Positions 2,286-12,879 of a DNA stretch of 64,000 nt are shown here, piece after piece. Position 1 is the stretch's first letter. The number at the start of each line of letters is the position of its first letter. A program made the position numbers and the translations under genes. Source of the DNA: Solirubrobacterales bacterium (GTDB lineage: Bacteria; Actinomycetota; Thermoleophilia; Solirubrobacterales; Solirubrobacteraceae); assembly GCA_019240115.1 (NCBI GenBank), contig JAFAYV010000088.1:1-64000 (forward strand), in the 5' to 3' direction. Under the pieces are notes generated by a model that saw only the letters and a list, made by a program, of their open reading frames with translations, searched no databases and was not told the DNA's origin.

Positions 2286-2560
2286 GGGCGTGGCGCGTGC
2301 CGCTGCCCGCCGGGGTGCGCGCACCCTTCGAGGTCTACGTCAACGGCGTGCGCCAAGAGCTCGGCTCCGACTATCGCGTCGCCGGCGGCGAGCTGCTGTT
2401 CGATCGCGAGCTCGTCCGCGAGAAGCTCAGCCGCTGGGCGTGGTTCCTGGGCTTCTGGGGCATCGGCACCTACAACCGCAACGACGAGATCGACGTCCGC
2501 TACGAGGTCGACGGGCGCCCGACGGTCGCCCACGCGCTCGAGATCAGGCCGCCCGAGTAG
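2282..2560 (+). CDS. Small conserved-looking hypothetical protein, 92 aa
   Basis: A 92-residue protein starting at the GTG that overlaps the acetyltransferase stop (GTGA). It reads like a compact beta-rich domain: FEVYVNGVRQELGSDYRV near residues 15-32, then a Trp-rich stretch (WAWFLGFWGIGTY) and a final strand pattern DEIDVRYEVDGRPTV. The N-terminal block resembles short carbohydrate-binding or phage tail-type beta domains, but I cannot name a family. It ends 16 nt inside the 3' end of the convergent metF gene. Coupling suggests a role beside the acetyltransferase. Confidence 0.65.
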   Translation: MRAWRVPLPAGVRAPFEVYVNGVRQELGSDYRVAGGELLFDRELVREKLSRWAWFLGFWGIGTYNRNDEIDVRYEVDGRPTVAHALEIRPPE

Positions 2561-3464
2561 CCCCGCCCACGACCTCGCGCACGGCCCACGGACGGTGGAG
2601 CCGCAGCGCGGAGAGAATCGCTCGCGTCGCGGGGGAGCGGTTCAACGTGTAGAAGTGGATCCCCGGGGCGCCGCCGGCGAGCAGCTCGGCGCACTGCAGG
2701 GTCGCCTGGGAGACGCCGAGCTGCAGCACCGCCTCGGGATCGTGCGAGCGCCACTCGAGCGCCTCGCGCAGGTCGTCGGGGATCGTCGCCCCGCACATGC
2801 CGGTGAACCGCTTGATCTGGCGCAGGTCGGTGATCGGCATCACCCCGGGGATGATCGGGACGTCGATGCCCGCGTCGCGCGCCTCCTCGACGAAGCGGAA
2901 GTACAGCTCGTTGTCGAAGAACAGCTGCGTGATCAGGAAGTTGACCCCCTGCTCGATCTTCTCGCGCAGGAAGCGCAGGTCGTGCGCGAGGTCGGGCGCC
3001 TCGGGGTGAACTTCGGGGAAGCAGGCCGCCCCGACGCACACGTCGCCGTAGGCGTCGCGGATGAGCGAGACGAGCTCGGTCGAGTAGCTCAGCCCGTCGG
3101 GCGACGGCCTCCAGTCGGGCTCGCCCCGGGGCGGATCGCCGCGCAGCGCGAGCACGTTGTCGATCCCCGCCGCGCGCATGTCGCCGACGATCGCCTGCAG
3201 CTCCTCGCGGGTCGATCCGACGCAGCTGAGGTGCGCCATCGCCTCGATCCCGAGCTCCTGCTTGATCCACTTGACGAGCTCGAGGGTGCGGCCGCGCGAG
3301 CTGCCGCCGGCGCCGTAGGTGACCGACACGAAGTCGGGGGAGAGCTGGCGCAGCGACTCGAGCGCGAGCCCGAGGACGCGCTCGCCGGCATCGCTGCGGG
3401 GCGGGAAGAACTCGAACGAGAAGAGCGGCTCGTCGGCCTTCTCGAGCAGGCGATCGATGCGCAC
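2544..3464 (-). CDS. metF: 5,10-methylenetetrahydrofolate reductase
   Basis: A 306-residue FAD enzyme that reduces 5,10-methylene-THF to 5-methyl-THF, feeding methyl groups to methionine synthesis. Family landmarks are all present: FSFEFFPPRS near residue 16, VSVTYGAGGS near 47, LALRGDPP near 104, ITQLFFDNELYFRF near 178, and PIIPGVMPI near 203. Length matches bacterial MetF. The GTG start sits 6 nt after a TAGGCT -10 box, so the mRNA is probably leaderless. Upstream is a strong inverted repeat overlapping the -35. The methyl-transfer fusion and metK are 31 kb away. Confidence 0.95.
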   Translation of the reverse strand: MRIDRLLEKADEPLFSFEFFPPRSDAGERVLGLALESLRQLSPDFVSVTYGAGGSSRGRTLELVKWIKQELGIEAMAHLSCVGSTREELQAIVGDMRAAGIDNVLALRGDPPRGEPDWRPSPDGLSYSTELVSLIRDAYGDVCVGAACFPEVHPEAPDLAHDLRFLREKIEQGVNFLITQLFFDNELYFRFVEEARDAGIDVPIIPGVMPITDLRQIKRFTGMCGATIPDDLREALEWRSHDPEAVLQLGVSQATLQCAELLAGGAPGIHFYTLNRSPATRAILSALRLHRPWAVREVVGGATRAA

Positions 3465-3470
3465 GGCTGC

Positions 3471-3504
3471 AGCCTAGCAACCTTGACAGAGCTATGTCAA
3501 GGTT
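3471..3504 (-). promoter_or_regulatory. metF promoter with palindromic operator
   Basis: On the minus strand TTGACA (3500-3495) and TAGGCT (3476-3471) are separated by 18 nt, with the metF GTG 6 nt further on. The -35 lies inside a perfect inverted repeat, AACCTTGACA (3479-3488) and TGTCAAGGTT (3495-3504), with a 6 nt spacer. This is a textbook dimer-binding site overlapping a promoter. A related TTGACA-N7-TGTCAA site occurs at 60094-60112. Confidence 0.75.
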
Positions 3505-11935: not shown

Positions 11936-12862
11936 TCAGGATAGTCGGGACTTGCGGCCGCGCACCTGTGCCCACGCGTTGCGCGCCTGGCGCATCGCCG
12001 CGAGCACCTGGGCGCGCGTCTCCTCGGCGGCGGCCGCGGCCGCCTGAGCCTGCTGCTTGGCGCGCGCGCCGCGGGCGAGCAGGCCGAACGACCACAGGCC
12101 GGCCTCGAGCAGCCGCCCGCCGCGTTCGAGGTCGTAGGCCACGGCGTCGCGCAGCGCCACGCCTCGCTTCCCCTCGCGGATGTGACGGACGCGTGATTGC
12201 CCGACGACGTCGGCGAGGCCGGCGAGCGCGCGGCCGGCGGCGGTCGGCTCGGGGTCCTGCGGATCGACGCCGGCGATCACGGCGAGCTCGTCGCGCACCG
12301 CGCGGGAGAGGCGATCGTGGAGCTCGAGCCAGGCGGCGCGCAGAGCCGGGGTGTTCTCGACCATCTCGACGAACATCGGCACGAACTCGACGAGCTCCTC
12401 GGGGATCTCGTCGAAGCGCGCCATGTCCTCGCGGATCGAGCGCACCATGGCGTCGGTCAGCGACTCGTCGTCGCGGCGCTCGCGCAGCGCCCGGGCGAGC
12501 CGTTCGATCGTTTCGTCGGCGGTGTCGAGGACCATCGACTCCTTGGTCGGGAAGTAGTTGTAGACGGTCTTCTCCGAGACCCCCACGCGGTCGGCGACCT
12601 CGGCCACCTTGACGTTGTCGAAGCCGCGGATGGCGAACAGCGCGGTCGCGGCGTCGGAGATGAGCTGGCGGGTCAGCCGGCGCTTACGCTCGCGCAGCCC
12701 CTCCTCGGGGTGGACGGCGCGGTAGCGCGCCTCCTCGAGCTCGCGATGGGACCGCATCGCGGCGGCCATCCGATCCCCGAGCTCGTCGGCGATCAGCTCG
12801 TGCAGCGCGGCGTCGCCGAGGTGCTCCTCCTCGCTGTGGCGGACGGGCGGCGGCGTCGACAT
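11936..12862 (-). CDS. TetR-family regulator with N-terminal extension
   Basis: A 308-residue regulator, longer than the usual 190-220. The TetR helix-turn-helix is at about residues 70-120 (RQLISDAATALFAIRGFD, then VAEVADRVGVSEKTVYNYF). About 65 acidic and basic residues precede it, and an Ala/Gln-rich helical tail follows the ligand domain. It is divergent from the ABC exporter and probably represses it through the inverted repeat at 12892-12908. I use ATG 12862 because a TATCCT box ends 11 nt upstream; the TTG at 12874 would lie inside that box. The inducer is unknown. Confidence 0.88.
   Translation of the reverse strand: MSTPPPVRHSEEEHLGDAALHELIADELGDRMAAAMRSHRELEEARYRAVHPEEGLRERKRRLTRQLISDAATALFAIRGFDNVKVAEVADRVGVSEKTVYNYFPTKESMVLDTADETIERLARALRERRDDESLTDAMVRSIREDMARFDEIPEELVEFVPMFVEMVENTPALRAAWLELHDRLSRAVRDELAVIAGVDPQDPEPTAAGRALAGLADVVGQSRVRHIREGKRGVALRDAVAYDLERGGRLLEAGLWSFGLLARGARAKQQAQAAAAAAEETRAQVLAAMRQARNAWAQVRGRKSRLS
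11938..11943 (-). promoter_or_regulatory. -10 box for the lipoprotein gene
   Basis: TATCCT (minus strand) lies 9 nt before GTG 11928 and overlaps the end of the upstream TetR coding region, suggesting the lipoprotein can be transcribed separately from the regulator. Confidence 0.45.
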
Positions 12863-12873
12863 CGCTCGGGTCA

Positions 12874-12879
12874 AGGATA
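12874..12879 (-). promoter_or_regulatory. -10 box of the TetR gene
   Basis: TATCCT on the minus strand, 11 nt upstream of ATG 12862, leaving a leader of about 4 nt. Confidence 0.5.

Follow-up and report, generated by a model that had tools for sequence, protein, structure and literature searches.

The 64,000-nucleotide stretch analysed here (the window; positions 1 to 64,000 of contig JAFAYV010000088.1 from a Solirubrobacterales bacterium) carries a perfect palindrome in front of metF, the gene for 5,10-methylenetetrahydrofolate reductase. The palindrome is probably the operator of a small, autoregulated MerR-family repressor of the activated-methyl cycle, with the cycle's intermediate S-adenosylhomocysteine (SAH) as the signal. 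The observations behind this reading were obtained by computation and comprise the operator, its conservation, a regulon of three sites, the genome context, the co-occurrence of regulator and site, and the MerR fold of the regulator.

The exact inverted repeat, AACCTTGACA-GAGCTA-TGTCAAGGTT (that is, AACCTTGACA-N6-TGTCAAGGTT), occupies positions 3479-3504 of the window. On the minus strand, the metF -35 element TTGACA (3495-3500) lies within the upstream arm of the operator and is followed, after an 18-bp spacer, by the -10 element TAGGCT (3471-3476). Only six bases separate the -10 element from the GTG start codon at 3464, and the promoter is therefore called leaderless. The metF gene (2544-3464, minus strand) is genuine, its product matching PF02219 with an E-value of 1.7e-95 and TIGR00676 above the cut-off. 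A previous reading of the sequence by itself (the sequence-only reading) had described a 10-bp palindrome over a leaderless metF promoter, and both the element and the gene proved to be as described. The span of 3471-3504 given for the palindrome includes, in addition to the repeat, the -10 box. The palindrome had also been placed symmetrically on the -35; it does overlap this element, but its centre, at 3491.5, is situated a few bases downstream.

Palindromy by itself is weak evidence in a GC-rich window (72.6% GC), which holds 17 perfect 10-bp inverted repeats with loops of up to 12 bases, against a mean of 7.95 in 20 shuffles. A 10-bp inverted repeat with at least six A or T in each arm was found in none of the 20 shuffles of the window, and the exact sequence of the metF palindrome, with up to three mismatches allowed, in none of 100. 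Because palindromy is weak when set against shuffles, conservation is used as evidence and carries, together with the genome-wide count of sites, the main weight of the argument.

Among 30 metF loci, the palindrome is found before metF in all 16 loci of the same genus, the one in the window included, and in one of the 14 others, with 19-20 of the 20 arm positions matching. The remaining loci match at no more than 11 positions. The arms of the conserved sites are nearly invariant, whereas variation is seen in the flanks and in the six-base spacer. Additional sites before metF were found later in family members. The sequence-only reading had proposed this comparison as well as a scan of the genome for the palindrome, and the scan yielded a second and a third site, before metH and before the merR operon. 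With up to three mismatches in 20 positions, the genome (4.03 Mb, 95.6% complete) contains these three sites, and a reversed control gives none. The degenerate pattern used in this search was derived from the three sites themselves; a 16-position core at up to three mismatches missed the merR site, which was located via the protein. A further 19 genomes contain 34 sites versus three in the control. Of 16 sites read that are not associated with merR, 13 lie before metH, two before metF and one before neither. In the own genome and the 19 further ones, merR-ahcY, metH and metF were the only targets found, and metK did not appear among them. Many of the genomes compared are fragmented metagenome bins.

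These results bear on the possibility that the repeat is an RNA hairpin, a terminator or a chance palindrome. Perfect 10-bp inverted repeats do arise in shuffles of so GC-rich a window. Nevertheless, such an origin is extremely improbable, as the sequence is conserved while the spacer is free, the genome has just three sites, which stand before related genes, and the palindrome is not followed by a run of T. No Rfam family was matched in seven loci and no SAH riboswitch exceeded the cut-off in 61 genomes; an SAH riboswitch or another RNA element was rejected on these grounds. A weak SAH-riboswitch-like match at L240 (G026:C150:13627-13700) has a score of 31.6 bits, under the cut-off of 37.

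The proposed regulator is a protein of 117 residues encoded by the first gene of the operon merR-ahcY1-ahcY2 (G000:C83, locus L105:1498-1848, minus strand). Its N-terminus is a MerR winged helix-turn-helix (PF13411, E 4.5e-13; PF00376, E 1.4e-11; both above the cut-offs), and the predicted model has a C-terminal helix formed by residues 98-116 (pLDDT 95.9, pTM 0.75). A fold search with this model places MerR-family structures on top (CueR, CarH, GlnR and CadR). The protein does not reach the cut-off of any of the listed NCBIfam equivalogs. A dimeric repressor of the TetR, MerR or GntR type had been suggested from the symmetry of the site, and the evidence selects MerR among the three.

Relatives of the regulator were collected by protein alignment, blind to the operator; 229 were confirmed and the best 80 kept. 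A site matching at least 14 of 20 positions lies upstream of merR in 79 of these best 80, the one exception being cut by a contig end, and ahcY lies downstream in 78. The relatives belong mostly to the Solirubrobacterales, including Solirubrobacter, Conexibacter and Patulibacter, and a small number carry the label Fodinicola, Frankiales, Geodermatophilaceae or Acidimicrobiaceae. The regulator is present in 91 of the 249 genomes of a class sample and in 11 of the 396 of a phylum sample, all 11 from Thermoleophilia. The records L149 and L158, titled Chlamydiae bacterium and Bifidobacterium breve, contain a Solirubrobacterales-type locus and are probably mislabelled bins.

In the set of 61 genomes, regulator and site occur together in 35 and are both missing from 18, with two genomes having MerR only and six the site only (Fisher p 1.5e-8, in a test that counts related genomes as independent). 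Both MerR-only genomes have a weaker site before merR. Of the six site-only genomes, two (G024 and G047) seem to owe their matches to chance, and four (G007, G014, G025 and G051) have a completeness of 75-89%. In G007 and G014 the contigs break off within ahcY1 or shortly after it, so that the assemblies may lack merR; in G051 a fragment of merR adjoins the site. Five genomes of the same genus (G006, G011, G012, G017 and G024) have neither merR nor a second AhcY nor any convincing site; their best metF match is of a divergent type, with 35-38% identity.

It is very unlikely that the site belongs instead to HspR, the MerR-family heat-shock repressor, or to some unrelated protein of the TetR or GntR type. 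HspR is, like the regulator described here, a short MerR repressor, and its CTTGA...TCAAG inverted repeat, which overlaps its own promoter and is given in full as CTTGAGT-N7-ACTCAAG, resembles the arms of the site (as described in PMC6102357). It is also among the NCBIfam models nearest to the regulator. However, the two systems differ in spacing and targets, and a true, separate HspR is encoded in all 11 of the genomes examined for it, including G006, G011, G012, G017, G024, G037, G041 and G053, none of which has a convincing site. This presence of HspR where convincing sites are absent led to its rejection as the owner of the site. In addition, MerR scores 31.9 and 38.1 bits versus an equivalog cut-off of 105 (NF047375), and the HspR consensus, with at most one mismatch, is absent from the own genome.

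The position of the operator relative to the core promoter was determined for 22 metF, 36 metH and 91 merR promoters, the set being confined to sites that match at least 15 of 20 positions and lie close to a start codon. The -10 element begins at position 20 of the operator in 81 of the merR promoters and in two metF promoters. It is found at positions 28-32 in 19 metF promoters (as a TAnnnT beginning at 28-30), 17 metH promoters and five merR promoters, at 40-42 in 19 metH promoters, and at 62-63 in two merR promoters. The metH promoters thus show two operator registers, about 11 bp apart. In the 81 merR promoters the -10 element is inside the right arm of the operator, which then mostly reads TGNTAAGGTT; TGTC is retained in the right arm only where the -10 element lies outside it, occurring in none of the 81 merR promoters with a near start codon compared with six of the ten having a distant one (p 3e-7). 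The metF spacer, measured from the -35 element to the TAnnnT downstream, is 17-18 bp in 18 of 22 promoters.

Classical MerR activators act at promoters with a 19-20 bp spacer and have their operator between the -35 and -10 elements. An activator of this kind, which works by untwisting promoters whose spacer is too long, would suit a regulator that belongs to the MerR family and an operator that overlaps promoters. It is nonetheless unlikely here, as the -10 element is found at several distances, which often place it inside the right arm, and most metF spacers measure 17-18 bp; classical activation was rejected on this geometry. Since the register changes and the operator trades off with the -10 element, unlike the fixed geometry of the classical activators, the regulator is likely to be a repressor that acts by occupying elements of the core promoter.

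According to the proposed mechanism, a MerR dimer would repress three leaderless or nearly leaderless promoters, those of metF, metH and its own operon. Binding would cover the -35 element and the spacer at metF, and the -10 element itself at its own promoter. A build-up of SAH would lift the repression, so that removal of SAH and remethylation rise together. The steps under control are the conversion of SAH to homocysteine by AhcY, that of homocysteine to methionine by MetH, and the supply of 5-methyltetrahydrofolate by MetF. The sequence-only reading had expected control of metF to link the supply of folate methyl groups to a signal. The link to a signal is retained as a probable one, but it now concerns the SAH cycle as a whole, represented by metF, metH and ahcY, instead of the folate methyl supply.

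SAH appears to be the likeliest signal because the targets match, except for metK, the core regulon of SahR, an ArsR-family regulator of Proteobacteria. The core SahR regulon includes the gene of the regulator itself, ahcY, metH and metF, the operator is palindromic, and the regulator is tied to genes of the SAH cycle (as described in PMC4239095). SahR is an ArsR-family protein, whereas the regulator here is matched by MerR models only. The SahR operator is ATC-N10-GAT and that found here is CCTTGACA-N6-TGTCAAGG. The SahR core includes metK, which was not seen here, where metF, in turn, belongs to the regulon just in the genus and in some relatives. SahR comes from Proteobacteria and the present system from Thermoleophilia and a few other Actinomycetota. 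The best reading of this comparison is that a MerR protein would do the job of SahR by means of an unrelated protein. There is a distinct, though clearly smaller, possibility that the repressor senses homocysteine, S-adenosylmethionine (SAM), methionine, cobalamin or adenosine in place of SAH. Several metabolites of the cycle are compatible with the content of the regulon; for sensing of SAM or methionine, however, metK or methionine biosynthesis genes would be expected beside the three targets found. The operator also differs from that of McbR, a TetR-type repressor of Corynebacterium. McbR is similar in being an actinobacterial, SAH-responsive repressor of methionine genes, and differs in that its regulon also takes in cysteine genes (as described in PMC4239095).

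The second AhcY of the merR operon, AhcY2 (L253:5169-6458, G000:C83, minus strand), is of the short AhcY type, its nearest relatives in the PDB being the adenosylhomocysteinases 7o5l and 7r37. The Lys, Asp and Asn of the motif NDxxTKxxFDN (KDN) are taken here to be the catalytic residues of AhcY. The motif reads TERALND in AhcY2 versus TKSKFDN in AhcY1, Glu, Asn and Asp (END) replacing Lys, Asp and Asn, which the solved relatives 7o5l and 7r37 retain in the alignment. KDN is kept in 99 of 99 AhcY1 sequences. The 48 AhcY2 sequences closest to that of the merR operon have END in 47 cases and ESD in one. A further 16, which are closer to the protein of family f7, have KDN (seven), KDD (three), QAN (two), and ADT, END, MDN and RDH (one each), although one of the seven with KDN (L150, 36%) resembles AhcY1 and is not to be counted as AhcY2. 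Fourteen further regions supplied more cases of END and KDN as well as QDT and AEN.

In a tree from which sequences of fewer than 200 residues were left out, the END and ESD sequences form one clade (44 sequences, support 100/98). The KDD sequences fall among Conexibacter-type copies whose motif is intact, and KDD, QAN and MDN arose outside the END/ESD clade, showing that the motif was lost more than once. The ratio dN/dS is 0.24 for AhcY2 and 0.23 for AhcY1, as estimated from one species pair with a simple counting method. With a value like that of AhcY1, AhcY2 is under purifying selection and is not decaying, and the replacement by Glu, Asn and Asp is conserved throughout the order. An AhcY2-type gene is present in 36 of 37 merR-positive genomes versus five of 24 others.

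It is possible, if rather doubtful, that the repressor is switched through AhcY2 as a catalytically altered, SAH-binding protein of its own operon, in the way that feedback-inhibited glutamine synthetase switches GlnR. The loss of Lys, Asp and Asn in all 48 nearest sequences while AhcY1 retains them, the single END/ESD clade with separate origins of KDD, QAN and MDN, the dN/dS ratio and the association of AhcY2-type genes with merR are in favour of this proposal. On the other hand, 12 merR-ahcY1 loci with enough flanking sequence have no adjacent ahcY2, and some ahcY2 copies keep KDN. The C-terminal motif of MerR is the same with and without ahcY2, so that docking of the two proteins is unsupported. 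The precedent is the MerR-like GlnR/TnrA system of Bacillota, where a short repressor is encoded beside the enzyme it controls (glnRA) and this enzyme, glutamine synthetase, is the sensor (as described in PMC9249791). It concerns another enzyme and another pathway, enzyme sensing being a hypothesis for the regulator here, which scores 23.0 and 24.7 bits versus a cut-off of 140 for the TnrA equivalog NF053740.

In family f7, the AhcY that adjoins merR is of the short type and has an intact motif. At L259 in this family, merR is followed by the short-type ahcY and then by mtnA of methionine salvage, and the same order was seen by eye at L260. No NCBIfam model matched, at the threshold used, the 368-residue gene after mtnA in L259. 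That the motif is intact where the AhcY2-type protein itself adjoins merR suggests the conversion of an enzyme into a sensor. An AhcY that was once catalytic beside merR, as in f7, and was then relieved by a second active AhcY may have become a conserved SAH-binding pseudoenzyme that switches the repressor of metF, metH and its own operon; this history is as tentative as the sensor role itself. Animal AHCYL1 is a parallel to a catalytically altered AhcY. In the own genome, a ROK-family kinase gene (L253:4173-5150, minus strand) directly follows ahcY2, as it does by eye in L254 and L255. A TetR-family regulator (PF00440) is encoded at window positions 11936-12874 on the minus strand and has no link to the palindrome.

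Several points weigh against the proposal of a SAH-responsive repressor of all three promoters. The assignment of SAH is argued from the content of the regulon alone. The merR site of the own genome is the weakest of the three, matching at 16 of 20 positions. The register clusters (20, 30, 41 and 62) are about 10-11 bp apart and could reflect contact with the polymerase on one face of the helix instead of plain blocking. Finally, 13 of the 14 metF loci from outside the genus have no site. The regulon core would accordingly consist of merR-ahcY and metH, with metF as a later or local member.

Methionine and methyl-cycle genes are known to be controlled by MetJ, MetR, SahR, SamR, McbR, MtaR and riboswitches (as described in PMC4239095). 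Within the open-access literature, a scope outside which most subscription papers lie, no publication was found in which ahcY, metH or metF is under a regulator of the MerR family, and a MerR-type switch of the methyl cycle has apparently not been described so far. The present system would add a MerR-family solution to methyl-cycle control, used in Thermoleophilia, which are mostly soil bacteria, and in a few other Actinomycetota. The regulon is small and clean enough for gel-shift testing. If AhcY2 did pass from enzyme to sensor, this passage could be tested in living relatives, because the intact and the altered motif are both still represented among them.
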